From a virus, in the IMG/VR virus record IMGVR_UViG_3300046167_000252, positions 1 through 34,538 of that record: a stretch of 34,538 nucleotides of DNA. One strand, 5' to 3'. Of this stretch, positions 3,284-34,538 are shown piece after piece (the stretch's first letter is position 1; each line of letters starts with the position of its first letter). A model generated the notes under the pieces. The model saw only the letters and a list, made by a program, of their open reading frames with translations. It was not told where the DNA came from and ran no database searches. The translations under genes and the position numbers were made by a program.

Positions 3284-3814
3284 CTACATAGGGATAGAAA
3301 TTTCTTGAAAGATTATGTCTTGCACATCCTCTATCCTCAAGTATGTAAACACATCCTGCTTACCGAATCTACCTATCCATTTGTACAAACCCTGTGAAGG
3401 TTTCACCCTATTCTTTCTGGTAACATTCTCTTGGGCAAATTCATCACACAACTCTATAGCCTTCAACCTCAACTTGTCCTTCTCCATCACATAGAACCTA
3501 TCGGGAAACTGAAAGGCGATGTACTCTGCTTTAGAATCTTTAGCACACCATCCGTGATAGCCCCACACATTAAGAAACTCCAGAAGAATGAATCCGTGCT
3601 TATGCATCGGCTTGAGTCCCTTGACATCTACGAGCTTATCACCCCAATAGAAATCAATGTGCTTCTTGTCATCTTCAAGTTCGGACTTGACTGCTCCTGT
3701 AAGAGCCTTGAACAACTCCTCACCATCCTTACCTATAGATATGCAATGGTCAGTTCTTTCATCGGATTGATTCAATCCTTTCTTGAGATATGTGTTTAGG
3801 CTATCGGAACTCAT
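3284..3814 (-). CDS. Putative PD-(D/E)XK-type nuclease
   Basis: 176 residues. GKDGEELF at 29-35, then HIDFYWGDKLVDVKG at 52-66, give an acidic residue, D54 and D63-V-K65, the spacing of a PD-(D/E)XK core with strand-turn-strand geometry. Family knowledge: such proteins include restriction enzymes, resolvases and exonucleases. The basic C-terminal half (VTRKNRVKPSQGLYKWIGRFGKQ) could bind DNA. The gene ends the replication operon, just before promoter P1. The assignment rests on a short motif only. Confidence 0.5.
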   Translation of the reverse strand: MSSDSLNTYLKKGLNQSDERTDHCISIGKDGEELFKALTGAVKSELEDDKKHIDFYWGDKLVDVKGLKPMHKHGFILLEFLNVWGYHGWCAKDSKAEYIAFQFPDRFYVMEKDKLRLKAIELCDEFAQENVTRKNRVKPSQGLYKWIGRFGKQDVFTYLRIEDVQDIIFQEISIPM

Positions 3815-9392: not shown

Positions 9393-9416
9393 AAAAAAAA
9401 AGAGGCGGATGCCTCT
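9393..9416 (-). terminator. Terminator upstream of P2
   Basis: The minus-strand hairpin AGAGGCATCCGCCTCT (9401-9416) is followed by a run of nine T. It stops anything entering from the A/T spacer before promoter P2 starts the replication operon. Confidence 0.85.
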
Positions 9417-9536: not shown

Positions 9537-9565
9537 AAAAAAAAAGAAAGGTGGGATAACCCACC
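9537..9565 (-). terminator. Terminator of the lysis module
   Basis: The hairpin GGTGGGTTATCCCACC (9550-9565, 6-bp stem, 4-nt loop) is followed by TTTC and nine T on the minus strand, 29 nt after the holin-like stop. It is probably the end of the long late transcript. Confidence 0.9.
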
Positions 9566-9593: not shown

Positions 9594-9959
9594 TTATTTA
9601 ACATTACCTCTCTTGTCAAGTGAGCGTACTGCGAAGTAACCTCCTACAACTGTTACACTTAACATATTCCATAGACTTATCCAAGCAGGGTCTACCTGTA
9701 GGTAGCCCAACCCATCAAAGAAAGTAGTAACTACCAGAAAGCTAATCACTACAATCAAGGTTAGTGGTCTTACATTCTTGCTTAACCAAGAGTCCGATGT
9801 CATATCGGATTTCCACCTACTGCTAATCTCGGACTCAATAGAAGCCTTTAGAGCGGCTTTCTCCTCTGGAGTTGATACATACCTATCTACGACATTAGAA
9901 ACGGCTTCTATCGTCTCCTGTGCGCTTTTTCCGAGTAGTTTTGTTATTAGTGGATTCAT
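9594..9959 (-). CDS. Holin-like protein (3TM phage holin type)
   Basis: 121 residues from the ATG at 9959 (MNPLITKLLGKS). The longer frame from 10028 overlaps the 41-residue gene and is unlikely. After a soluble helical half comes SWLSKNVRPLTLIVVISFLVVTTFF and then WISLWNMLSVTVVGGYFAVRSLDK. The RP-led first span and GGYFxxRSLDK end are typical of the 3TM holin family found in gene transfer agents and marine phages. Family knowledge: such proteins permeabilise the inner membrane to release endolysin. The position at the end of the lysis cluster supports this. Confidence 0.75.
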   Translation of the reverse strand: MNPLITKLLGKSAQETIEAVSNVVDRYVSTPEEKAALKASIESEISSRWKSDMTSDSWLSKNVRPLTLIVVISFLVVTTFFDGLGYLQVDPAWISLWNMLSVTVVGGYFAVRSLDKRGNVK

Positions 9960-10006
9960 TACAATTCTTTTTACAGGTACATTCCTTTGGTTGAGTAGAG
10001 CAATAC

Positions 10007-10132
10007 TTAACTGCCACAAGCCTCGCAATCTGGGTTATCAATGTTACAGGCTTTCTCGTTAGCCTTGTCATTAGTCATCTCATCTACAAAGTCCTCAAAG
10101 GAGTCTGCAAACCCGAAGTCGGTGTCGTTCAT
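10007..10132 (-). CDS. Hypothetical acidic protein, 41 aa
   Basis: ATG at 10132 overlapping the previous stop as TAATG, stop TAA at 10007-10009. Very acidic (MNDTDFGFADSFEDFVDEMTND) with three Cys near the end (ACNIDNPDCEACGS), perhaps for metal or disulfide. Exact fit between spanin-like and holin-like genes supports translation. Function unknown. Confidence 0.6.
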   Translation of the reverse strand: MNDTDFGFADSFEDFVDEMTNDKANEKACNIDNPDCEACGS

Positions 10133-10431
10133 TAACCTCTTTTTATTATATCAATTTCACGCTGCAAATATCTGTTCTCGGTCTCAAGCTCCGCTACCTT
10201 TTGCGTAAGTCTTAAGATTTCTCCTTGTGCAGTTTCAAGGCTTGTACTCATCTCATTCACTCGCTTCAGCAAGTCATCTCTAAACATAGTCTCTGGATTA
10301 TCGGCTCTCTCTTCCTTTCGCAACTCTCGTGCCGAATCCTTCTTGGTCTTAATGACCATCTCATAAAACTTAAATGCTGCTCCGCTACCCAAGATCGTAA
10401 CAAGTGCAATAATCAGCTCTTTGCTTTCCAT
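10132..10431 (-). CDS. Membrane-anchored coiled-coil protein, spanin-like
   Basis: 99 residues. One N-terminal span (LIIALVTILGSGAAFKFYEMV), then a charged linker and a long coiled coil (LLKRVNEMSTSLETAQGEILRL through ETENRYLQREIDIIKRG). An inner-membrane anchor with a periplasmic coiled coil is the design of i-spanins, but many phage lysis accessory proteins share it. I see no outer-membrane lipoprotein partner. It overlaps the four-span membrane gene and the 41-residue gene. Confidence 0.55.
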   Translation of the reverse strand: MESKELIIALVTILGSGAAFKFYEMVIKTKKDSARELRKEERADNPETMFRDDLLKRVNEMSTSLETAQGEILRLTQKVAELETENRYLQREIDIIKRG

Positions 10432-10796
10432 TGTTTAGTAACTCTTATTTGATTTATAACTGCTGCAAACGCAATGATTAACCAACCAAAGCGTGAAGGG
10501 GCTTCCCATAAAAGCCCTGTCATCATATACTGCTCAACCGTTAAGAAGGCTACAATCGTAGCTATAACTGTTGAATAGTATCTACATCGTAGGTCTCGCA
10601 TACCTACACTATAGAATTGAAATAATCCTCCGCCTATGGCTATAAAGATTATATGCCACTTAAACCCTATCTCTGCCCATACCGCAGCAGGTAAGAGTAA
10701 GGTGTGTAGCACCGCTATAAGTAACTCTAAAAACTCACTATCGGCAAAGCCTATAATAGTCTTGAGGTTCTTTTTGATTAGTTTAAAGTTTACCAT
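10413..10796 (-). CDS. Four-span membrane protein, possible holin
   Basis: 127 residues. Hydrophobic segments lie near 23-42, 47-64, 76-95 and 103-119, with basic ends (NFKLIKKNLKK and VTKQWKAKS) that would both face the cytoplasm. It lies directly after the endolysin gene (7-nt overlap). It may be a holin, an antiholin of the 3TM protein at 9594-9959, or an unrelated membrane protein. Confidence 0.55.
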   Translation of the reverse strand: MVNFKLIKKNLKTIIGFADSEFLELLIAVLHTLLLPAAVWAEIGFKWHIIFIAIGGGLFQFYSVGMRDLRCRYYSTVIATIVAFLTVEQYMMTGLLWEAPSRFGWLIIAFAAVINQIRVTKQWKAKS

Positions 10797-11245
10797 TTCG
10801 TGTATCGTGTCTTTCCGTTATCCTTATACGCTACGAGTACCTCGCCTCTATTACCCTCTTCTTTGTACGAACAATGTACCCAAGCATACTCACCCATATT
10901 ATCGGGGAACTCACCTATGAGTTGGTCAAAGGTTAAGTGATCTTTGATATACATAAAGAGTTCACGATTCGTGTACCCTCCTGTAGACTGCATATCCAAT
11001 GCTTCACCCTTTGAATGTTGTGAGTTGTTAGAACCTCCTATGGCTTTATTCAACTCCTTTGACCGATAGCCAGAGGTAACTCTTAAAGGCTTTCCAAAAT
11101 GTTCTCGGCAAGGCTGAAAGATATTGTTGGCTACTGCCTTCAAATTGATTAAGTGAGATACTGTTGGCTCGTTTGCAATCCCCTTGCGTAAAGCAGTCGC
11201 AGAGTATGTCACTTCTGCAAGGCTCAAATTCTCCGTTAGCTTCAT
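10790..11245 (-). CDS. Endolysin, peptidase M15 family
   Basis: 151 residues. The zinc-site motif SQHSKGEALDM (H77, D84) and the later WVHCSY (H124) match M15 D-Ala-D-Ala carboxypeptidases and endopeptidases, and VTSGYRSKELNKAIGG is the usual segment before it. Family knowledge: it would cut the peptide stems of host peptidoglycan. There is no signal peptide, so export needs a holin, and two candidates lie just downstream. Length is normal for a single-domain phage enzyme. Confidence 0.88.
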   Translation of the reverse strand: MKLTENLSLAEVTYSATALRKGIANEPTVSHLINLKAVANNIFQPCREHFGKPLRVTSGYRSKELNKAIGGSNNSQHSKGEALDMQSTGGYTNRELFMYIKDHLTFDQLIGEFPDNMGEYAWVHCSYKEEGNRGEVLVAYKDNGKTRYTKW

Positions 11246-16021: not shown

Positions 16022-16493
16022 CTTTGTCTGGGTACATATCGTCATTCGTTGCTCCATTATATTCGGGATAGCTTGAGTTGTTAAAAGCCATAAAGTCAAT
16101 AAACCTACGAGTGTAGTGTTCAGCTATATCTCTGTGCTTATTCGTTAAGAAGTCCACCTCGTTCTTCTCCATCGCTATACTGTTCTCTGCCGTGTGCTTG
16201 TAAGCACCTCCATTACCTATCGTATAGGCAGCGTGAGGTAAATACTCTACCATAGCCCAATGGATCAACATAGGTTGAATATAGTCATCTAACAAAGTAG
16301 CATAAGCTACAGGTAGCGTATCTCCTATGATGTCATTACGCAACTTATCGTACAACTTACTACCCAAGTAGTTTTGAATGTGTATCTCCTGTGCAATCTC
16401 TATAAATTGCAAGAACTTATCGGAGTCTACATTTCCAGAGATTACGCTATTGCGTACTAAATCGTCTCTTTTTATGAATAAAACCTTTGCCAT
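15993..16493 (-). CDS. Head-tail connector/adaptor (DUF6712-like)
   Basis: 166 residues, mostly helical. LFIKRDDLVRNSVISGNVDSDKF then IQIAQEIHIQNYLGSKLYDKL and the long helix with MLIHWAMVEYLPHAAYTIGNGG fit the helical connector proteins that dock under the portal (gp6/gp15-type; in Bacteroidetes phages DUF6712). It follows the portal with a 1-nt overlap, the expected place. Its first 48 codons are repeated at 19359-19502 because the tandem duplication breaks inside it. The call rests on layout and place. Confidence 0.65.
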   Translation of the reverse strand: MAKVLFIKRDDLVRNSVISGNVDSDKFLQFIEIAQEIHIQNYLGSKLYDKLRNDIIGDTLPVAYATLLDDYIQPMLIHWAMVEYLPHAAYTIGNGGAYKHTAENSIAMEKNEVDFLTNKHRDIAEHYTRRFIDFMAFNNSSYPEYNGATNDDMYPDKDAVFNGWQL

Positions 16494-18370
16494 TATTTTC
16501 CGTAATTAGGGTGATGCCCTTGTCTTGGCATATCAATCGGTGCAGTAGCTACCTCTTTAGGGTTTTTAGGTAGTTTAAATCCTGCTCTTACCGCTTGGTT
16601 AACATTAACATATTTAGTTCCTCGTAGGGCATCGCCACCATAAGGTTCACCATTCTTCTTCATTTTCTTCTTGTAGATTCTACGCTCCCATCTATGGTAG
16701 CAGTTTACACCACCCTTGTACTTAAACAAAGAATAGTTTCTACCCTTGTGTCCAAAGCTCTTATTCACACCTCTTGCACTCATCATACCAATATCCTCTT
16801 TGCGGTACAATTTCTTTTGAGATAACATAGTCTTGCAGAAAGCACGAGAAGAGCCTTTAGAAGTCTTCTTTGTACCCTTCACATACTTGTATCTTACCTT
16901 GTATATCTCGGAGTCTTGGTTACTGTCTTGTGTAGCGGATAAGTTGACTAATCCATTGAGGTATTCTTCAGTATCAAACTCCTCTGGTTCATCGTCTCCT
17001 ACAATCTCTGCATCAATGAGTTCATAGCCCTCTGGCTCTTCCTCACCCAAGTCAGCCAATGCATCTAACATCTCGTGGGCTAACTCGTCATCAAGAAAAG
17101 GGCGGCTATCCTCGCTTAATTGTTCTATAGGTACGCAGTTCGGTACTTTTCTGCCGTTCTTCATCTTCATACCTACCATCTCATAACCCTCCGTACAAGG
17201 GTCATCAGCATCCTTCAACTCGTCTTTGCATCCGCAGTCGCTACTCAACTCCTCTTTTACTTCCTCCTCCATATCAATCTGCAACTCTAAAGGTTGTAGT
17301 GTCTTGAAGTATAAGTTAAGGCTCACCTCGTTCACTGCAAGGATGTCATCACAAGCATCCAAGATCAACTCTTGAATAGGTCTAACAACCGTGTTGTGGA
17401 ATAAGAGACTTGCAGTCTTCAACTCATCAGCATTGTTACCCAATCCTGTATTGTCTTTAATACCCATCAACATAGGAGAAGTAACCCTATGGGCTACCAT
17501 CAACTTTCGCATACTCTCGTCTGCCAAGAATTGGTACTGCTCACTTGCATCCGATAACTGTACAGGCTCAATACTTGCAGCCATCTCCTTGTTATCGTTA
17601 AATGCCAAGATGAACTTACCAGAATTAGATGAACCGCTAAACTTCTGTATGATTCGTCTCTCTATAAGCTCACGCTCTTCCTCCGTTGGTACACCATTGT
17701 TGAAGTTAATCAACATACTTGGCGATAAGCCGTTCTTAATGTTGTTGATGTGGTAGTTTGCTACCTCCTCTTCCAACTCTGCATAAGGCAATCCCCCTTG
17801 ATAGTCTACAGGTGAGTAGTAATAGAATCCACTACGATAAGGCTTGATACAATAAATCTCAAGACCCTCACCTTTCTCACCGTGACCGAACGCAGGGATG
17901 CGTACAGGCTCAAAGCCTTTCTTACGAATCTTTGTCCAATCTTTAGAGTAGTAGTAACCACATACATCACCATCCTCGTTCATCTTCTCAAAGCGTAAGG
18001 TCTCAATAGGCATATGCTCTACTTGTACGATCTTTGTCTTGTCTTTGTTGTAGATGACTTGGAATGCTGCTTGACCCATAGCCTTCAAATCAAAGGTCAC
18101 CTTCCTCATACAAGTGCGAGAGAACAGAGACTTCATCTGTGCATATTGGTCTGGCTTTCTTTGAGCATCGGTAGCGTATAGCCCCTTGCCGTAGATAAGC
18201 TCACTCATACCATTTATAATGGCATTGTTTGTAGCACTACCATTGTACCTGTCTATAAGGTATTGGAAGTAGTTATTGTCCTCGCCATATGCTACCCATT
18301 GCTTACGATTGTCTTCTACAACCTGTGGGGTAGTATGCGTTGCAAGGTTTACGATGCGTATATTGCTCAT
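16493..18370 (-). CDS. Portal protein, copy 1
   Basis: 625 residues. The first 400 look like a phage portal core (DNNYFQYLIDRYNGSATNNAI, FDLKAMGQAAFQVIYNKDK, MRKLMVAHRVTSPMLMGIK, with an acidic segment from about 375). The C-terminal 120 form a separate basic domain (FCKTMLSQKKLYRKEDIGMM, then YKGGVNCYHRWERRIYKKKM) seen attached to portal or minor head proteins in related phages. Family knowledge: twelve subunits form the DNA gate where the terminase docks. It differs from copy 2 by one residue (Thr for Ser in NKDKTKIVQ). This copy is joined to the intact adaptor gene. Confidence 0.85.
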   Translation of the reverse strand: MSNIRIVNLATHTTPQVVEDNRKQWVAYGEDNNYFQYLIDRYNGSATNNAIINGMSELIYGKGLYATDAQRKPDQYAQMKSLFSRTCMRKVTFDLKAMGQAAFQVIYNKDKTKIVQVEHMPIETLRFEKMNEDGDVCGYYYSKDWTKIRKKGFEPVRIPAFGHGEKGEGLEIYCIKPYRSGFYYYSPVDYQGGLPYAELEEEVANYHINNIKNGLSPSMLINFNNGVPTEEERELIERRIIQKFSGSSNSGKFILAFNDNKEMAASIEPVQLSDASEQYQFLADESMRKLMVAHRVTSPMLMGIKDNTGLGNNADELKTASLLFHNTVVRPIQELILDACDDILAVNEVSLNLYFKTLQPLELQIDMEEEVKEELSSDCGCKDELKDADDPCTEGYEMVGMKMKNGRKVPNCVPIEQLSEDSRPFLDDELAHEMLDALADLGEEEPEGYELIDAEIVGDDEPEEFDTEEYLNGLVNLSATQDSNQDSEIYKVRYKYVKGTKKTSKGSSRAFCKTMLSQKKLYRKEDIGMMSARGVNKSFGHKGRNYSLFKYKGGVNCYHRWERRIYKKKMKKNGEPYGGDALRGTKYVNVNQAVRAGFKLPKNPKEVATAPIDMPRQGHHPNYGK

Positions 18371-18699
18371 CGGTAAATGTATTGATTATCATTATCAGTG
18401 TCCTCGTAATAGGTGAACTCACCATTGTTGACACTAAACTTCTCAAGGTCGGTTTGATTCGTACAATAAACCTTACCTCTATATATCTCGTTAGAGCCTG
18501 TTATTCTTATGGTGTAATACTTACCCTCTACGAATGTATAAGAAGGTGTTATATGCAAGTAATTCGCCTCCTTCGTAGCCGTTAGAGACTCCGTAGCGGA
18601 CACATTGGTTTCCTCATCTGTAATCTTAACAGATACACTTGTATCAAACGCTCTTGGAACGAAATATATCTTCTTGTCTGTTGTAGTTACTATATGCAT
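18367..18699 (-). CDS. Small structural-region protein, 110 aa, copy 1
   Basis: Beta-rich throughout (KKIYFVPRAFDTSVSVKITD, YYTIRITGSNEIYRGKVYC) with an acidic end (EDTDNDNQ). It overlaps the portal start as ATGA. The start follows the element GGTTAACCTATTATG. It is identical in protein sequence to 21376-21708. An immunoglobulin-like or decoration fold is possible, but no family is recognised. Confidence 0.65.
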   Translation of the reverse strand: MHIVTTTDKKIYFVPRAFDTSVSVKITDEETNVSATESLTATKEANYLHITPSYTFVEGKYYTIRITGSNEIYRGKVYCTNQTDLEKFSVNNGEFTYYEDTDNDNQYIYR

Positions 18700-18711
18700 A
18701 ATAGGTTAACC
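18697..18711 (-). promoter_or_regulatory. GGTTAACCTATTATG start-site element, copy in block 1
   Basis: The 8-bp palindrome GGTTAACC lies 4 nt before the ATG at 18699. The identical 15 bases occur at 32318-32332 before an unrelated gene, each time downstream of a UUCG-loop terminator. It may be an operator or a translation element. Confidence 0.5.
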
Positions 18712-18735
18712 ACCAAGAGGTATAAGTGTTATATC

Positions 18736-18767
18736 AAAAAGAAAGGGCAACCCCGAAGAGCTGCCCT
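18736..18767 (-). terminator. UUCG-loop terminator after the 179-aa gene, copy 1
   Basis: Minus-strand stem AGGGCAGCTC, loop TTCG, stem GGGGTTGCCCT, then TTTCTTTTT. It lies 51 nt after the stop at 18818. A tetraloop of this type is very stable. Confidence 0.9.
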
Positions 18768-18817
18768 AACCAAACCAAAACACCTATGTCAAGTGCCGTT
18801 GCTAATATACTACTTTC

Positions 18818-19357
18818 TTACGAAGTAACAATAGTATCTGTAGCTGAACTCATTCCTGCGAATGGGTTGCCATCAGTTGCTCCTGCAATGAAGTTAGCAG
18901 CAGTTACTTCCATAGCATTGAAGGTAAGAGTGTAACCACTCATATCTCCCATAGCTGCTCCAGAGGCAATAGTACCACCTGTTACATCTGCTCCGTGTTC
19001 ACGACCTACCAAGTAAGCGTTGCCGTTGTAGTCCTCTACAACAATGTGAGGTCTGCCGTAAGACAATAACTTGATCTCGTTGTTATCCTCCTTGCTCAAT
19101 TGAGGCAAAGAAAGGCTAACCGCTTGGTCAAAGAATACTGTTCCGTTCTCACGAGAAGCGTTAATAGTTTGCTCTACTGAAGATGTGCCTTTCAGCTCAT
19201 ACTTGTAAGCAGAGAATGTTCCTGTCATATCAGTAACCTCATCGGATGTAACAGAGATAGTTCCTAAATCACCGAAGTTTACAAAGTAAACCGCTTTAAG
19301 ACCACCTACTGATTCACGACAAGGTAACGCACGACCTTTAGTTAAATCACAAGCCAT
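18818..19357 (-). CDS. Major structural protein candidate, 179 aa, copy 1
   Basis: Identical protein to 21827-22366. The open frame extends upstream to an ATG at 19405, but that part is the out-of-frame adaptor fragment created by the duplication, so the real start is 19357 (MACDLTKGRALPC). In this copy the native leader and the upstream terminator are missing, because the duplicated block begins exactly at this ATG. Expression would depend on read-through from copy 2. Function is described under copy 2. Confidence 0.7.
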   Translation of the reverse strand: MACDLTKGRALPCRESVGGLKAVYFVNFGDLGTISVTSDEVTDMTGTFSAYKYELKGTSSVEQTINASRENGTVFFDQAVSLSLPQLSKEDNNEIKLLSYGRPHIVVEDYNGNAYLVGREHGADVTGGTIASGAAMGDMSGYTLTFNAMEVTAANFIAGATDGNPFAGMSSATDTIVTS

Positions 19358-19502
19358 CGTACAACTTACTACCCAAGTAGTTTTGAATGTGTATCTCCTG
19401 TGCAATCTCTATAAATTGCAAGAACTTATCGGAGTCTACATTTCCAGAGATTACGCTATTGCGTACTAAATCGTCTCTTTTTATGAATAAAACCTTTGCC
19501 AT
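19347..19502 (-). pseudogene. Truncated 5' fragment of the adaptor gene
   Basis: The first 48 codons are the same as those of the adaptor at 15993-16493 (MAKVLFIKRDDLVRN to GSKLY). The reading frame then crosses the duplication junction and stops after D-G-L at a TGA. A 51-residue peptide could be made from it but would lack most of the protein. It is the scar of the tandem duplication. Confidence 0.9.
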
Positions 19503-21379
19503 TATTTTCCGTAATTAGGGTGATGCCCTTGTCTTGGCATATCAATCGGTGCAGTAGCTACCTCTTTAGGGTTTTTAGGTAGTTTAAATCCTGCTCTTAC
19601 CGCTTGGTTAACATTAACATATTTAGTTCCTCGTAGGGCATCGCCACCATAAGGTTCACCATTCTTCTTCATTTTCTTCTTGTAGATTCTACGCTCCCAT
19701 CTATGGTAGCAGTTTACACCACCCTTGTACTTAAACAAAGAATAGTTTCTACCCTTGTGTCCAAAGCTCTTATTCACACCTCTTGCACTCATCATACCAA
19801 TATCCTCTTTGCGGTACAATTTCTTTTGAGATAACATAGTCTTGCAGAAAGCACGAGAAGAGCCTTTAGAAGTCTTCTTTGTACCCTTCACATACTTGTA
19901 TCTTACCTTGTATATCTCGGAGTCTTGGTTACTGTCTTGTGTAGCGGATAAGTTGACTAATCCATTGAGGTATTCTTCAGTATCAAACTCCTCTGGTTCA
20001 TCGTCTCCTACAATCTCTGCATCAATGAGTTCATAGCCCTCTGGCTCTTCCTCACCCAAGTCAGCCAATGCATCTAACATCTCGTGGGCTAACTCGTCAT
20101 CAAGAAAAGGGCGGCTATCCTCGCTTAATTGTTCTATAGGTACGCAGTTCGGTACTTTTCTGCCGTTCTTCATCTTCATACCTACCATCTCATAACCCTC
20201 CGTACAAGGGTCATCAGCATCCTTCAACTCGTCTTTGCATCCGCAGTCGCTACTCAACTCCTCTTTTACTTCCTCCTCCATATCAATCTGCAACTCTAAA
20301 GGTTGTAGTGTCTTGAAGTATAAGTTAAGGCTCACCTCATTCACCGCAAGGATGTCATCACAAGCATCCAAGATCAACTCTTGAATAGGTCTAACAACCG
20401 TGTTGTGGAATAAGAGACTTGCAGTCTTCAACTCATCAGCATTGTTACCCAATCCTGTATTGTCTTTAATACCCATCAACATAGGAGAAGTAACCCTATG
20501 GGCTACCATCAACTTTCGCATACTCTCGTCTGCCAAGAATTGGTACTGCTCACTTGCATCCGATAACTGTACAGGCTCAATACTTGCAGCCATCTCCTTG
20601 TTATCGTTAAATGCCAAGATGAACTTACCAGAATTAGATGAACCGCTAAACTTCTGTATGATTCGTCTCTCTATAAGCTCACGCTCTTCCTCCGTTGGTA
20701 CACCATTGTTGAAGTTAATCAACATACTTGGCGATAAGCCGTTCTTAATGTTGTTGATGTGGTAGTTTGCTACCTCCTCTTCCAACTCTGCATAAGGCAA
20801 TCCCCCTTGATAGTCTACAGGTGAGTAGTAATAGAATCCACTACGATAAGGCTTGATACAATAAATCTCAAGACCCTCACCTTTCTCACCGTGACCAAAC
20901 GCAGGGATGCGTACAGGCTCAAAGCCTTTCTTACGAATCTTTGTCCAATCTTTAGAGTAGTAGTAACCACATACATCACCATCCTCGTTCATCTTCTCAA
21001 AGCGTAAGGTCTCAATAGGCATATGCTCTACTTGTACGATCTTACTTTTGTCTTTGTTGTAGATAACTTGGAATGCTGCTTGACCCATAGCCTTCAAATC
21101 AAAGGTCACCTTCCTCATACAAGTACGAGAGAACAGAGACTTCATCTGTGCATATTGGTCTGGCTTTCTTTGAGCATCGGTAGCGTATAGCCCCTTGCCG
21201 TAGATAAGCTCACTCATACCATTTATAATGGCATTGTTTGTAGCACTACCATTGTACCTGTCTATAAGGTATTGGAAGTAATTATTATCCTCGCCATAGG
21301 CTACCCACTGCTTACGATTGTCTTCTACAACCTGTGGGGTAGTATGCGTTGCAAGGTTTACGATGCGTATATTGCTCAT
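19502..21379 (-). CDS. Portal protein, copy 2
   Basis: 625 residues, the same layout as copy 1: a portal core followed by a basic C-terminal domain. Of the 12 base differences from copy 1, two change one codon (Thr to Ser) and the others are silent, so both copies appear under protein-level constraint or very young. A portal downstream of the major capsid gene and far from terL is an uncommon order. If the duplication is real, mixed dodecamers would form from nearly identical subunits. Confidence 0.85.
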   Translation of the reverse strand: MSNIRIVNLATHTTPQVVEDNRKQWVAYGEDNNYFQYLIDRYNGSATNNAIINGMSELIYGKGLYATDAQRKPDQYAQMKSLFSRTCMRKVTFDLKAMGQAAFQVIYNKDKSKIVQVEHMPIETLRFEKMNEDGDVCGYYYSKDWTKIRKKGFEPVRIPAFGHGEKGEGLEIYCIKPYRSGFYYYSPVDYQGGLPYAELEEEVANYHINNIKNGLSPSMLINFNNGVPTEEERELIERRIIQKFSGSSNSGKFILAFNDNKEMAASIEPVQLSDASEQYQFLADESMRKLMVAHRVTSPMLMGIKDNTGLGNNADELKTASLLFHNTVVRPIQELILDACDDILAVNEVSLNLYFKTLQPLELQIDMEEEVKEELSSDCGCKDELKDADDPCTEGYEMVGMKMKNGRKVPNCVPIEQLSEDSRPFLDDELAHEMLDALADLGEEEPEGYELIDAEIVGDDEPEEFDTEEYLNGLVNLSATQDSNQDSEIYKVRYKYVKGTKKTSKGSSRAFCKTMLSQKKLYRKEDIGMMSARGVNKSFGHKGRNYSLFKYKGGVNCYHRWERRIYKKKMKKNGEPYGGDALRGTKYVNVNQAVRAGFKLPKNPKEVATAPIDMPRQGHHPNYGK

Positions 21380-21708
21380 CGGTAAATGTATTGATTATCA
21401 TTATCAGTGTCCTCGTAATAGGTGAACTCACCATTGTTGACACTAAACTTCTCAAGGTCGGTTTGATTCGTACAATAAACCTTACCTCTATATATCTCGT
21501 TAGAGCCTGTTATTCTTATGGTGTAATACTTACCCTCTACGAATGTATAAGAAGGTGTTATATGCAAGTAATTCGCCTCCTTCGTAGCCGTTAGAGACTC
21601 CGTAGCGGACACATTGGTTTCCTCATCTGTAATCTTAACAGATACACTTGTATCAAACGCTCTTGGAACGAAATATATCTTCTTGTCTGTTGTAGTTACT
21701 ATATGCAT
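21376..21708 (-). CDS. Small structural-region protein, 110 aa, copy 2
   Basis: Same protein as 18367-18699. It lies between the probable tube/decoration gene and the portal, with an ATGA overlap to the portal. Beta-strand-rich sequence with Thr/Ser/Tyr suggests a virion component such as a minor head or neck protein. This is an inference from place only. Confidence 0.65.
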   Translation of the reverse strand: MHIVTTTDKKIYFVPRAFDTSVSVKITDEETNVSATESLTATKEANYLHITPSYTFVEGKYYTIRITGSNEIYRGKVYCTNQTDLEKFSVNNGEFTYYEDTDNDNQYIYR

Positions 21709-21720
21709 AATAGGTTAACC
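21706..21720 (-). promoter_or_regulatory. GGTTAACCTATTATG start-site element, copy in block 2
   Basis: Same 15 bases as at 18697-18711, directly at the start codon 21708. Its presence here follows from the duplication. The independent copy is at 32318-32332. Confidence 0.5.
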
Positions 21721-21744
21721 ACCAAGAGGTATAAGTGTTATATC

Positions 21745-21776
21745 AAAAAGAAAGGGCAACCCCGAAGAGCTGCCCT
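21745..21776 (-). terminator. UUCG-loop terminator after the 179-aa gene, copy 2
   Basis: Same hairpin and T-rich tail as at 18736-18767, 51 nt after the stop at 21827. Termination here would make the upstream structural gene more abundant than the portal, which fits the low copy number of portal subunits per virion. Confidence 0.9.
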
Positions 21777-21826
21777 AACCAAACCAAAACACCTATGTCA
21801 AGTGCCGTTGCTAATATACTACTTTC

Positions 21827-22366
21827 TTACGAAGTAACAATAGTATCTGTAGCTGAACTCATTCCTGCGAATGGGTTGCCATCAGTTGCTCCTGCAATGA
21901 AGTTAGCAGCAGTTACTTCCATAGCATTGAAGGTAAGAGTGTAACCACTCATATCTCCCATAGCTGCTCCAGAGGCAATAGTACCACCTGTTACATCTGC
22001 TCCGTGTTCACGACCTACCAAGTAAGCGTTGCCGTTGTAGTCCTCTACAACAATGTGAGGTCTGCCGTAAGACAATAACTTGATCTCGTTGTTATCCTCC
22101 TTGCTCAATTGAGGCAAAGAAAGGCTAACCGCTTGGTCAAAGAATACTGTTCCGTTCTCACGAGAAGCGTTAATAGTTTGCTCTACTGAAGATGTGCCTT
22201 TCAGCTCATACTTGTAAGCAGAGAATGTTCCTGTCATATCAGTAACCTCATCGGATGTAACAGAGATAGTTCCTAAATCACCGAAGTTTACAAAGTAAAC
22301 CGCTTTAAGACCACCTACTGATTCACGACAAGGTAACGCACGACCTTTAGTTAAATCACAAGCCAT
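21827..22366 (-). CDS. Major structural protein candidate (tail tube or capsid decoration), 179 aa, copy 2
   Basis: Begins MACDLTKGRALPCRESVGG. It is mostly beta strands with short turns, and its end MGDMSGYTLTFNAMEVTAANFI resembles the last strands of phage tail tube proteins. The gene has a terminator immediately upstream of its leader and another downstream. That arrangement, with a T-rich leader after the major capsid gene, points to an abundant virion protein. Tail tube is my first choice. A capsid decoration protein next to the major capsid gene is the alternative. No sheath gene is seen. Confidence 0.55.
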   Translation of the reverse strand: MACDLTKGRALPCRESVGGLKAVYFVNFGDLGTISVTSDEVTDMTGTFSAYKYELKGTSSVEQTINASRENGTVFFDQAVSLSLPQLSKEDNNEIKLLSYGRPHIVVEDYNGNAYLVGREHGADVTGGTIASGAAMGDMSGYTLTFNAMEVTAANFIAGATDGNPFAGMSSATDTIVTS

Positions 22367-25161: not shown

Positions 25162-26085
25162 TTAGATTTTGTCTAATGACTTCAGTTTGCTCTCTGCCCA
25201 TCTCTTGGCACTCTTGCCACCCCATAGTAGATAGCTAATATATCCGCAAGACTCTGTGTCACCTTCTTCATAGTATTCCTCTGCTCTACTCAAGTAGCTA
25301 TACATACGCTTAATAGTCTCAACACTTATAGCCTCGCCTTTCGCTAACTGCTGCGCTCTAACCTTTCCTACCTGTGTAGCACACTTGTTGTTAACCTTCT
25401 TGTTTAACTCTATACCCCTTTTTGCATTGTTGCGTACCGAAGTGGGGTAATCCTTGTATGTTTCAAGTTCAGTACGCTTACCCTTTTTTGTGCGGAGGTC
25501 TTTCTTAATGATTGCCTTGATAGCATTGAGTTGCTCCTCTGCTTTGTCCTCCTCTGGGTCTTGCTTACTTGCCTCAACCTTATCAACGAAGTAACCCTCA
25601 ATAGAGAAACCCTTAACCTTACCACTCTTCACATAGTCGTTCCAAATCTCATCGTTGTGAACCTTCATACTAACCATCCAAGTGCCTACAGGTAAGTCCA
25701 TACCATATAGCTTACTCTTGTCTTGCTCACCTTCAATAATCCAACTCTCTACAACACTCAAGCCTGTAATGTCTATTTGGTGTTCTAATGTGGCTTTGTT
25801 TTGGTTGCCATTGATGAAGAACAATTCACTTGCCTTTCTAACCGTGTCTTGCGAGAAGTAGATGTAATACTCATCTTCACCGCTTCTACGATAGATAGGT
25901 TTATTAGGTACAAGAGCTGCACCCAATAGAACACGCTTGTCCTCGTCAATGGTTTTTAATTCTACACGCTCCTCTTCCTTGAGGGCTACGAAGTCCTCCT
26001 CTATAGCAGGGGCTTCTACGATACTGATGGCTTGGATACCTGCTTGGAGGCTCTCCTCATCTAATAATAGTTCTACGATTCTCAT
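25162..26085 (-). CDS. Prohead protease, XkdF-like serine peptidase
   Basis: 307 residues. KATLEHQIDITGLSVVESWI (H102) and KGFSIEGYF (S161) match the His and Ser segments of XkdF-type phage prohead proteases (Peptidase U35-like), which mature the capsid by cutting scaffold and core proteins. From about 205 a second domain begins (YPTSVRNNAKRGIELNKKVN, through SCGYISYLLWGGKSAKRWAESKL), a C-terminal module common behind such proteases in Bacteroidetes phages. It starts with a TAATG overlap to the tape measure gene and stands upstream of scaffold and capsid genes. Confidence 0.8.
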   Translation of the reverse strand: MRIVELLLDEESLQAGIQAISIVEAPAIEEDFVALKEEERVELKTIDEDKRVLLGAALVPNKPIYRRSGEDEYYIYFSQDTVRKASELFFINGNQNKATLEHQIDITGLSVVESWIIEGEQDKSKLYGMDLPVGTWMVSMKVHNDEIWNDYVKSGKVKGFSIEGYFVDKVEASKQDPEEDKAEEQLNAIKAIIKKDLRTKKGKRTELETYKDYPTSVRNNAKRGIELNKKVNNKCATQVGKVRAQQLAKGEAISVETIKRMYSYLSRAEEYYEEGDTESCGYISYLLWGGKSAKRWAESKLKSLDKI

Positions 26086-27929
26086 TATGGGAATGATACT
26101 TGGTTAATTCTATTTCTATCTAATTCTTGTTGTGAGGTAACATCACTACCTACTACATATGCTCTTACAGGGTTCGCTTGTAGCGATTCCAATATAGCGT
26201 TTTGACCCGATGCCCCTACTATATTAAATTGGGGTGAGGTACTTGGTGAAGTAGGTGTGTCAATGTTTGTATCTACACTACCACTCGCTTGGAATTGTTG
26301 CCTTGCAATGGTAGCTATTTGTGCTGCACCTGTGGCTGCAACAATCGCTGCATTACCGAATCTCAAGGATTGTGTAGGTGTTGGGTCAGTAGTCTCTGCC
26401 AGAGCTTTAGAAATACCTTGAGCAGTACTTATAACCGCATTGGCTATACCTGCTGCCTTGTTGACCATAAATGCTTTCTTTGCATTCTTTTCACTATCAC
26501 CAAAAAAGGCTTGGGCAAGATCATTAAGTGCGCCTATGGCATCTTGTGACATCTGTACTTTTGAGTCTTGTACGGCTTGTTCTAAAGCAATTCTTTTTCT
26601 TGATTCTTCTTGTTGTGTTTGAAACCTTTCTGCATCTAATAAATCAAGAGCATTGATGGTTTCCTCATACGCAGTAGAGCCAACCTCCATCGTGTTTAAC
26701 TGATTCATCAATCGTTGTTGCTCTAACTCAAAAGACTTCTTGCTCAACTGCTCCTCAAGGTCTAATCGCTTACGCATTGTTGTAGCCTGTTCTATTGCTA
26801 CTTGACTTTGAAGCTCGTTTATTTCTTGTTCAGTCTCACTACGAGCATTTTCAATGTCTAACAACTCTCTCTGTAGAGACATCTCATTCATCAACTGCTC
26901 ACTACGAAATCCTGCTACTTGAGCCTCTACACCTATCAACTCATTTTGAGCAGCTATGTATTCCTTTTGGAACTCAATGTTATCCTTGTCAAGACTTAAC
27001 TGTCGTGCTTTAGCATTTAACACCGATTGAGCATTCTCAAGCATTACCTTCTCTTGCTCTTCAAGTACCTTTCCTAAATCCTCATTGGCTTTAATACGCT
27101 CATCCATAGACAAGCGTTCATCGTCTCTTACTTGTCTTAATTTCTCTGCTTGTAAGTCGTACTTCTCAATCAAGCCTTGCATACGAACCTCTGCAATCTC
27201 TGCTTGTTTGTTAGTCTCGGTCATTGCCGCACCTTGCTTAACTGTCTCTACCACATAGTTAGAGATAGCCTTTGCACCTTTGGTGATTAGCTCTTTACCC
27301 TTATCAAAAGAATTGTTGACACCTGTAAGTACATCTAAAGATTCCTTACCTGCGTTCTTCACATCTTTCATTGCCCCTGCAAAGTCACCGCTAAATACCT
27401 TCTTAACGGCACTTGCCAAGTATCCTAATGTATCAAGATAGGACTCAAAGCGTTCTTGGATGTTACGCTTGAACGCATCAGCAAAGTCTAATAAGGCTTG
27501 TTTAGGGTCTTCAAATATGGATTTGAAAAAGTTAACAATACTACTACCCCCACTACCACTAATCCATTTAGTAAAGTCGCTAAAAGCTACCTGTAGAGTG
27601 TTGAATGTAGTGTTGAAGAAGTCTACTGTCTTCTGGTTGTTATCAAACAACTCTTTAAGTATACCCATCGCTTGGAGTAAGATACCAATACCTGCTGCCT
27701 TAATAGCTACACCTAAACCCTTGAAGCCTGTACCAAGTCCCTTGATACCCTTTTGGCTATCTTTAGCACTCTCACCAATGTCTTTAGTAGTATCGGCAAT
27801 TGTGTTAATGCTATCAGCAGTCTTGTCTGCTTGAGTTTGGGAAGCCTTTAACGCATCAATGAGTTCGTCTAACTTCTGCTCAAGACCAGAAAGGTCTGCA
27901 CCTATAACTATGTTCTTCTCTATTGCCAT
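26085..27929 (-). CDS. Tape measure protein
   Basis: 614 residues. It opens with a coiled coil (LSGLEQKLDELIDALKASQ), a Gly-rich hydrophobic segment near 65-90 (GLGVAIKAAGIGILLQAMGIL), a long central coiled coil (about 230-460) and a second hydrophobic Ala/Gly-rich part (AGIANAVISTAQGISKAL and FGNAAIVAATGAAQIATIA) near the end. This is the usual layout of a tail length ruler. At roughly 1.5 Angstrom per residue it would predict a tail of about 90 nm. It follows the other tail genes and precedes the protease, an uncommon place. Confidence 0.85.
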   Translation of the reverse strand: MAIEKNIVIGADLSGLEQKLDELIDALKASQTQADKTADSINTIADTTKDIGESAKDSQKGIKGLGTGFKGLGVAIKAAGIGILLQAMGILKELFDNNQKTVDFFNTTFNTLQVAFSDFTKWISGSGGSSIVNFFKSIFEDPKQALLDFADAFKRNIQERFESYLDTLGYLASAVKKVFSGDFAGAMKDVKNAGKESLDVLTGVNNSFDKGKELITKGAKAISNYVVETVKQGAAMTETNKQAEIAEVRMQGLIEKYDLQAEKLRQVRDDERLSMDERIKANEDLGKVLEEQEKVMLENAQSVLNAKARQLSLDKDNIEFQKEYIAAQNELIGVEAQVAGFRSEQLMNEMSLQRELLDIENARSETEQEINELQSQVAIEQATTMRKRLDLEEQLSKKSFELEQQRLMNQLNTMEVGSTAYEETINALDLLDAERFQTQQEESRKRIALEQAVQDSKVQMSQDAIGALNDLAQAFFGDSEKNAKKAFMVNKAAGIANAVISTAQGISKALAETTDPTPTQSLRFGNAAIVAATGAAQIATIARQQFQASGSVDTNIDTPTSPSTSPQFNIVGASGQNAILESLQANPVRAYVVGSDVTSQQELDRNRINQVSFP

Positions 27930-32602: not shown

Positions 32603-32624
32603 ATTTGTGTTTTGATTATACCGC

Positions 32625-32647
32625 AATATACACATTATTTTTAACAA
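32625..32647 (-). promoter_or_regulatory. Putative phage promoter P3
   Basis: Third copy of the 23-bp unit (conserved ends TTGTTAA and TGTGTATATT). It starts 3 nt after the -1 frame stop at 32650 and lies 22 nt before the start at 32602, which also argues that coding ends at 32650 and not at 32778. Confidence 0.7.
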
Positions 32648-32649
32648 AC

Positions 32650-32895
32650 CTAATGCTTCAACATCTTCTTCTCTACATCTGCCTTCTCCTTGTCGTACAC
32701 AAGTTTGGTAAGGCATTGCCTCAAAGGTAGGTTCGTTATAGAATCATATCTTGATGCATCACCACCTGCTAAATGGTCTACCGATCCATACCATCCCCAC
32801 TTCCTTGAAAAGTTTGCGGAGGCTGAAAGGTCTGTGGTTTCTCCCCCTGTGAAGAGGTCGGGGTACTCTTCAATAACTTGTTGCTTAAACGATAA
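32650..32895 (-). CDS. -1 frame C-terminal extension of the gene after terL
   Basis: In the -1 frame after the T run there is an open stretch of 81 codons. It encodes LSFKQQVIEEYPDLFTGG, then FSRKWGWYGSVDHLAGGDAS, then LPLRQCLTKLVYDKEKADVE, and stops at 32650-32652. This reads like a folded domain, while the zero-frame end is Pro/Gln/Ser-rich filler. Fusion at the T run gives a 244-residue protein. It has no start codon of its own at the right place, so it is made by frameshifting, or the T run is one base short in this assembly. Confidence 0.7.
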   Translation of the reverse strand, partial: LSFKQQVIEEYPDLFTGGETTDLSASANFSRKWGWYGSVDHLAGGDASRYDSITNLPLRQCLTKLVYDKEKADVEKKMLKH

Positions 32896-33383
32896 AAAAA
32901 AAGCGTTGCACCTAATGCAACATCTAAAGGAAAGTCCGAATATCCATCCGTACCATTGTACGGCTCTACCTCATACAGGTCTCCCTTCTCTTTCGTTATG
33001 GGTCTATACAAGACCCCAATAGTCTTATGCAACATATCCATATCAGCAAGGTAGGTATCCAAGTCTATGTACTCACCGAAACTCATCTCCTCCAGATTAG
33101 GAACAAAGCCATACTCTCTGCCTCTAAAGGTTACCCTTCTTGTGAGTGGGTGTTTAGCACCTATCATTGTAAAGATGCTATTGCCAATATCCATTATATC
33201 GTCTGCCTTCATAGCATAGGCTACCTTGAGAGGTATGTTAGCGAATATCTCTAATGCCTTGAGCATTGTGAAGGTGTCATCTCCTTGAACCTTGAGGAAC
33301 TTTTGGTATTGCTCTATAGTAAGCTCTCTTGCGGTCTCTGGTAAGATTACCTTTACCTCTCTACCTAACTGCGTATGTTCCAT
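32778..33383 (-). CDS. Protein after terL, zero-frame product, 201 aa
   Basis: Starts MEHTQLGREVKVILPETARE with a 23-nt overlap to terL. Residues 20-150 look folded (LTIEQYQKFLKVQGDDTFTM, VTFRGREYGFVPNLEEMSFG, FPLDVALGATLFF). After the T run at codons 161-164 the zero frame becomes low-complexity (KSTPTSSQGEKPQTFQPPQT). Two products from one start with a shared N-terminal part recall lambda gpG and gpGT tail assembly chaperones. However, the gene is several genes away from the tape measure. Function is otherwise unknown. Confidence 0.65.
   Translation of the reverse strand: MEHTQLGREVKVILPETARELTIEQYQKFLKVQGDDTFTMLKALEIFANIPLKVAYAMKADDIMDIGNSIFTMIGAKHPLTRRVTFRGREYGFVPNLEEMSFGEYIDLDTYLADMDMLHKTIGVLYRPITKEKGDLYEVEPYNGTDGYSDFPLDVALGATLFFYRLSNKLLKSTPTSSQGEKPQTFQPPQTFQGSGDGMDR
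32894..32902 (-). promoter_or_regulatory. Slippery T9 run, putative -1 frameshift site
   Basis: Nine T in mRNA sense, read in frame as CTT TTT TTT TAT. Ribosomes can slip back one base on the U run. Nearby sequence downstream is GC-richer than average, but no clear pseudoknot was identified by eye. Confidence 0.55.
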
Positions 33384-34538
33384 ATGTCTTGTTCTTCTTT
33401 CTATTGTAGTTGCATAATGACAGGCTTATGACCGTGTCATCGTGTAGTCCTGTAGGGTGTCCGTATCTAATACTTCGTGTCTTTGGGCTATACTCGTATG
33501 TGAAGTAGCTTAACTCGTTGTATAAGGGACTGAATAATTCTTTTGATGGTATGTGTACACTCACCTCGTTAAAGTCCAATATAAGCCCCTCTATGATTTC
33601 GTTCTTGCTTTTGTTCGTAGTAACAAATGGATGGGTGTTTGCATACTGACTCTTTATCTGCTCAAAGATAGGGTCACCTACACCATTCACCTCAACCATC
33701 AAAGAGGCATTGTACTGCCTCACCCTCTTCACTACCTCTGCAATCATTACTGACCATTGGTTCTTATTGTCCCTATAGATGTCTACAACCCTACCTTTAG
33801 AATCCATTAGTGTAAGGACTGTGTAGTCCTCCTGCTTACCTATATCCAATCCTGCGAATACCCTACCTTGTGGTTTAGGGTAAGAAGGGAATGTGCATTG
33901 ATCTATGTTAGCGAAGACCTCGCCACCACCATCTATGAACTCTGCTAAATACTCTTGCTTGAATATGAGTTCTGGAACTGTTCTCTTGGCATCGTCTATC
34001 TCCTCCTGTGAGATAAAGGGTGTGTCGTATGAACTGCCCTTGTAGGATTTGTAGTTGGGGTAGTCTTCACTCTGCCCATATTGGAATAACTCGTAGAACC
34101 AATTCTTACCTTTAGGTGTAGAGATGAATAATACCTTCTTACCTCTTACAAGTAGGGTCGGCTTGATAGCCTCACTCCAAGCATCGTCTTTAATGAACGC
34201 TGCCTCATCTATGATGGCATAGTCCAAAGTCATACCCCTTATGTTATCGTATCTTTCTGCACTCCTAAAGTAGATGGTACTGCCATTCTTTAGTTCCAAC
34301 TCCGAAGAGGAGTAGTTATTAGACTTGACTATTCCAGAGGCTGCAATAGCAGACATCAACTCTTTCTGCACCTTGTTTGCTTGTGAGTATACAGGTGATA
34401 CCCATAGTATCTTACAGGGGCTATTGTTGAAGCCCCAATACAATGCAAGGTTCATACCCATCATAGACTTACCAAACTGCCTTCCTATAGAAGCTATGTG
34501 GTACTTCTCATTACCCCCTACAATAGATTGTAATAGTT
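33361..34538 (-). CDS. terL: Terminase large subunit, main part (open at the window edge)
   Basis: Joined with 1-40 this gives 405 residues. ATPase part: Walker A GRQFGKS at 32-38, Walker B AIIDEAAF at 121-128 and the coupling motif FISTPKG near 151-157. Nuclease part: FAGLDIGK with D245, LMVEVNG with E296 and HDDTV with D380/D381. This is the standard two-domain packaging motor that cuts phage DNA and pumps it through the portal. The first ATG inside this piece, at 34464, lies after Walker A, so it is not the true start. Gene order terS-terL is preserved across the circle junction. Confidence 0.95.
   Translation of the reverse strand, partial: LLQSIVGGNEKYHIASIGRQFGKSMMGMNLALYWGFNNSPCKILWVSPVYSQANKVQKELMSAIAASGIVKSNNYSSSELELKNGSTIYFRSAERYDNIRGMTLDYAIIDEAAFIKDDAWSEAIKPTLLVRGKKVLFISTPKGKNWFYELFQYGQSEDYPNYKSYKGSSYDTPFISQEEIDDAKRTVPELIFKQEYLAEFIDGGGEVFANIDQCTFPSYPKPQGRVFAGLDIGKQEDYTVLTLMDSKGRVVDIYRDNKNQWSVMIAEVVKRVRQYNASLMVEVNGVGDPIFEQIKSQYANTHPFVTTNKSKNEIIEGLILDFNEVSVHIPSKELFSPLYNELSYFTYEYSPKTRSIRYGHPTGLHDDTVISLSLCNYNRKKNKTYGTYAVR

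Follow-up and report, generated by a model that had tools for sequence, protein, structure and literature searches.

Does a gene whose reading is broken at a run of nine T encode a single product or a short and a long one, and, if both, which machine changes the frame? The question is raised by a gene lying directly after terL in a viral sequence of 34,538 nt (IMG/VR record IMGVR_UViG_3300046167_000252, the whole of which we call the window).

A gene divided between two reading frames

The gene and its upstream neighbour are on the minus strand. The neighbour is terL, the terminase large subunit (33361..34538, minus), whose 5′ end falls outside the window and which matches PF03237 (E 2.3e-19) and phrog_2 (E 3.6e-47); its end overlaps the gene by 23 nt. 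The zero frame (32778..33383, minus) starts at an ATG at 33383 and stops at 32778, and would give a short, G-like product of 201 aa. The candidate frame-switch site is a run of exactly nine T (32894..32902, minus) in the codons ACG CTT TTT TTT TAT; read from the sequence, it holds a zero-frame heptamer T_TTT_TTT (32895..32901, minus) that a ribosome could use. The −1 frame extension (32650..32901, minus), a candidate T-like domain, stays open for 81 codons beyond the FF encoded by the run and closes with a TAG at 32650-32652, so that the fusion of both frames computes to 244 aa. The third frame meets a stop three codons past the run.

An earlier, sequence-only reading of this DNA had described a gene after terL with a T9 run and a −1 frame open for 81 codons, and both coordinates and sequence agree with that description. 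The Pro/Gln/Ser-rich zero-frame tail that it reported is likewise present, but it is unconserved past about 14 codons and is predicted to be disordered. It had also placed a promoter motif 3 nt after the −1 stop. A sigma-70-like match (TTAAAA-18-TATAAT, 10/12; 32615..32644, minus) is indeed found there, but it begins 5 nt past the stop; it is a consensus match only, and the region contains eight matches of equal kind when shuffles predict 2.9.

Apart from T9, the window has just two A/T runs that reach nine or more, both of them A9 and on the plus strand (9393-9401 and 9537-9545). The window also contains a 3011-bp direct repeat in tandem (16347-19357 and 19356-22366; 99.6% identity, 12 mismatches), each copy of which carries a gene for a 625-aa portal protein and two smaller genes. 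This repeat is either a true duplication or an assembly artefact.

The −1 relation is invariant among related genes

First-round protein searches yielded 80 distinct related genes, all of them with T9 and with a C domain encoded in −1. Protein searches in total gave 303 distinct homologues, every one in the −1 arrangement (303/303), with T9 in 242 and T10 in 61. A scan at the DNA level was done with the motif F..KWGWY, which lies downstream of the run, the run itself being no part of the query. It returned 80 loci, again all in −1 (80/80), with T9 in 63 and T10 in 17. The combined set comprises 364 distinct genes from IMG/VR, from two Nonlabens isolates (P12024S and P12024L) and from Bacteroidota MAG contigs, and identity among the collected relatives reaches down to 27%. 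T9 is found in 293 of them and T10 in 71, and the C domain is always in −1. As for Bacteroidota genome contigs, no relatives were found there in the first scan, and four MAG contigs were found in the second.

All 364 members are one gene with a zero frame and a conserved −1 extension, the organization of a G/GT-type gene, and none of the 364 has both parts in a single frame. The layout put forward in the sequence-only reading, a −1 switch with 201- and 244-residue products that resembles lambda G/GT and sits beside terL, is thus conserved throughout the set. The search that it suggested, for homologues with a continuous frame or with a conserved run, gave a continuous frame in 0/364 and a run of at least nine T in 364/364.

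Homopolymers are error-prone, and the gene could in principle be a plain continuous one whose ten T were sequenced or assembled as nine. The same arrangement is nevertheless shared by 364 distinct genes, which come from many samples and from two isolate genomes; the zero frame is still constrained past the run; and genes that do have ten T keep the −1 relation, their frame being compensated. This last point also removes the test by which ten T would have meant a continuous gene, as the 71 T10 genes are still in −1. With 293 T9 and 71 T10 genes sharing the −1 position of the C domain, a miscounted homopolymer is excluded as the source of the pattern, and we give an error of this kind a negligible probability. 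By this comparison the frame arrangement is neither chance nor miscount. It is almost certainly a conserved recoding that yields a short and a long form, and we infer that both proteins are made.

Homopolymers also mutate easily, and phase variation is known at such runs in bacteria (PMC3711429). In that case the length of the run would shift during replication and toggle the long form between phage particles. Yet 0/364 genes have both parts in one frame, and the tree shows few changes in run length, none of which breaks the −1 relation; this makes the explanation very improbable.

The −1 frame adds a predicted helical domain

In AlphaFold models, the N domain of the 201-aa product is folded to about residue 173 (pLDDT 83), with a last helix (153-173) that spans the run, and the zero-frame tail (178-201) is predicted to be disordered. 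The −1 domain is modelled as three helices (27-45, 49-56 and 60-82) at a pLDDT of about 90. Its folded helical core (model residues 27-82; 32656..32823, minus) bears the KWGWY motif.

Substitution counts divide the sequence past the run in a similar way. Roughly the first eight codons show near-zero substitution in both frames, and constraint in both frames extends over the first 14 codons 3′ of the run (32852..32893, minus), where one variable site leaves the zero-frame residue unchanged and alternates between V and I in −1. Past about 14 codons the coding pattern is retained by the −1 frame only, and the length of the zero-frame tail ranges from 24 to 67 codons across relatives. Taken with the models, the extension is folded and under selection and the zero-frame end is not, as in a gene of the G/GT type. 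Because AlphaFold models and substitution patterns agree, the short form looks real up to a few residues past the run, its end resembling filler, and the long form, on the same models and counts, is one that adds a genuine domain. The impression that the −1 frame reads like a folded domain is hence borne out, both by the helical model and by the conserved −1 coding pattern.

The conservation of the −1 codons right after the run also bears on another explanation, in which the two parts are separate proteins, the −1 domain being translated from an internal start without fusion, or in which the T9 run acts, together with a stem that precedes it, mainly as an internal transcription terminator. GenBank does annotate a distinct gp39 in Nonlabens phage P12024S, and a terminator-like match exists at 32922-32904. 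However, neither reading needs conserved −1 codons immediately after the run or an invariant run, the stem is limited to one clade, and some structure-library proteins match the N and C models as if these formed one chain. We judge these two possibilities, taken together, improbable.

A putative tail assembly chaperone

The N domain matches phrog_32199, a family of unknown function, with an E value of 1.4e-12, the match being found in all 40 aligned members. Among the families matching the window, the −1 domain has none of its own. No Pfam family matches the N domain, and fold and sequence searches gave no PDB match for it. Fold matches were to uncharacterised phage proteins, including a Nonlabens protein, with one weak match to an annotated tail assembly chaperone (E 0.03). 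Both models, N and C, are matched by several structure-library proteins of 226-267 aa, a sign that in some relatives the two domains may form a single chain.

In chaperones of the G/GT type, both forms bind the tape measure protein and the long form binds the tail tube protein. Very probably, the gene specifies a tail assembly chaperone of Bacteroidota phages in a short and a long form. The role is deduced from architecture because Pfam and the PDB gave no match to a characterised chaperone. As regards position, the gene directly follows terL instead of lying between those for the tail tube and the tape measure; partial tape-measure matches are found in a gene at 26085-27929.

In Flavobacterium phage 6H (region 9950-10927), gp10 (191 aa) may be related in fold to the N domain; it ends TGT TTT TTC TAT AGC ACC CGA TAA. 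We considered gp10 as a relative with a slip site of its own and rejected it, the −1 frame stopping immediately after T_TTT_TTC. Past gp10 there are about 300 unannotated bases, in which an open −1 frame begins only after a −1 stop.

The run never falls below nine T

The heptamer T_TTT_TTT is in frame in every one of the 364 genes, as expected of a ribosomal site, but its presence cannot discriminate between mechanisms because any T9 contains it. We therefore counted the T outside the heptamer. Given as (upstream, downstream), they are distributed as (1,1) in 287 genes, (1,2) in 53, (2,1) in 18, (2,0) in 4 and (0,2) in 2; their sum never drops below two, and the total is never below nine nor above ten. 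The two genes without an extra upstream T, which have AGT or GCT before the run, both have two downstream, and a clade with CTG after the run has no extra downstream T and two upstream. The chance of such balancing under independence is about 0.0014, a post hoc figure that uses the margins of the 364-gene counts and takes three lineages as independent. All three codon phases of the run occur, each with at least nine T. On the basis of these three lineages, this is the pattern expected of a slippage site, with at least nine A/T whatever the codon phase. Mapped on a tree of 111 representatives, the position just before the run has undergone at least 27 changes and the one just after it at least 15, against 6 changes in run length. 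In many bacteria, selection against slippage becomes visible once a run reaches nine A or T (PMC1088944).

These observations are suggestive of selection on run length itself, as expected for slippage by RNA polymerase. They are not conclusive because coding can account for most of the outer T: Leu, Val or Ile is usually encoded immediately 5′ of the run, and the next codon after it often has T as its first base. This is where programmed −1 ribosomal frameshifting has its strongest claim. As in lambda G/GT, the P- and A-site tRNA-Phe would slip back one base on T_TTT_TTT, and the outer T would be kept merely for the amino acids that they specify in both frames. The G/GT switch has been described as a ribosomal event (PMC5009743), and efficiencies of 6-7% measured for another chaperone cluster (PMC3711429) indicate that modest sites suffice. 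On the other hand, seven T would do for a ribosome, and runs of seven or eight are absent from the 364 genes, even where the flanks are Ser, Ala or CTG.

RNA structure around the run

In pseudoknot-free folding, downstream structure is absent among the 111 representatives: the mean z is about +0.1, compared with −0.26 in control windows. Upstream, the window and its clade have a stem, GTTGCA-TTAGG-TGCAAC (32905..32921, minus), which ends two bases before the run and forms with T9 the terminator-like match mentioned above. In this clade one stem pair switches from T-A to A-T by two synonymous changes; 30 genes have GTT..GCA, 35 have GTA..GCT and none is mixed, and the tree contains about five joint switches. 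A paired test of the switches had 4 independent pairs, all concordant and too few for significance. Four of the six stem pairs are invariant, and among 1491 column pairs nearby about a dozen show an association as strong as that of the stem pair; for these reasons the covariation amounts to moderate evidence for the stem. No excess of stems was seen outside the window's clade, and the 5′ stem was therefore rejected as a family-wide feature.

The geometry of the stem is also informative. With a ribosome placed at the slip codons the stem would sit within the ribosome, which speaks against ribosomal frameshifting in this clade, as does the missing downstream structure in the representatives at large. 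A polymerase that has reached the last T would have the stem at its RNA exit channel, and stimulation of slippage by a nascent stem upstream of the slip site has been described (PMC5009743).

Polymerase slippage and ribosomal frameshifting

We lean towards slippage because the run holds at least nine T in any codon phase, downstream structure is absent and one clade has a 5′ stem. In the reading that we prefer, standard decoding would produce the 201-residue short form. RNA polymerase would slip at T9 and leave some mRNAs with one extra U, ordinary translation of which would enter the −1 frame; a minority of products would then carry the −1 helical domain and constitute the 244-residue long form. 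In the window's clade, slippage would be aided by the stem that the nascent RNA could form just before the run.

That polymerase slippage operates here, whether in place of ribosomal frameshifting or alongside it, we consider moderately probable on the comparative sequence evidence, and RNA-polymerase slippage is, though unproven, somewhat more likely than ribosomal frameshifting. The complete proposal, a short and a long tail chaperone of the G/GT kind with RNA polymerase slipping at T9, is one that we hold with a slight inclination. The same slight inclination applies to its extension to the group, namely that these Bacteroidota phages make the long chaperone by programmed slippage at T9 or T10, aided by a stem in one clade, and not ribosomally. 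Programmed frameshifting by the ribosome is a serious possibility to which we give less than even credence. The sequence-only reading had taken ribosomal frameshifting as the default and transcriptional slippage as an alternative. Run length, the absence of structure and the clade's stem now tip this order towards slippage, without settling it.

Few recoding events in tailed phages are as widely conserved as the switch from G to GT. A search of the openly licensed literature, which may have missed prior work, shows this switch treated as a ribosomal event. If host RNA polymerase does reach the same outcome in a large phage group, this would suggest that selection keeps the ratio of the products and not the machine that makes them. 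Even isolate records list the two parts as hypothetical proteins with no link between them, and such chaperones are therefore overlooked. The slippage reading is directly testable with RNA reads from existing isolates.

Comparison with known systems

The closest parallel in architecture is lambda G/GT (PMC5009743). In both, one gene of the phage structural region encodes a short product and a −1 extended product, with an N domain common to the two and an extra domain in the long form only. The likeness is one of architecture, and there are differences: lambda has a mixed heptamer and here there is T9 or T10; the lambda gene lies just before the tape measure gene and this one directly after terL; and here the polymerase is possibly the switching machine. 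phrog_32199 differs from the gene as we describe it in that it covers no more than the zero-frame product.

The Nonlabens phages P12024S and P12024L (Inhavirus; gp38/gp39 and gp40/gp41), at about 27-30% identity to the window's gene, have the same gene after terL, with CTT TTT TTT TAT and the −1 domain. They differ in a shorter zero-frame tail (175 aa product), in that no 5′ stem is seen, and in being annotated as two unrelated hypothetical proteins. In both records the −1 domain is a hypothetical protein whose start falls inside the domain (3534-3701; 3528-3695), and the fusion was missed for this reason.

As to mechanism, slippage in Thermus dnaX and in IS elements (PMC1088944, PMC5009743) also relies on a conserved run of nine A/T that joins two frames within a coding region, whereas the present case is a putative phage tail chaperone gene in which slippage is proposed. 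The Roseiflexus IS element (Penno 2015), in the account given of it in PMC5009743, likewise has a terminator-like stem directly 5′ of its slip run. According to that account its run is T5C5 and a base is lost, whereas here the run is T9, one base would be gained or two lost, and the stem is weaker and belongs to one clade only.
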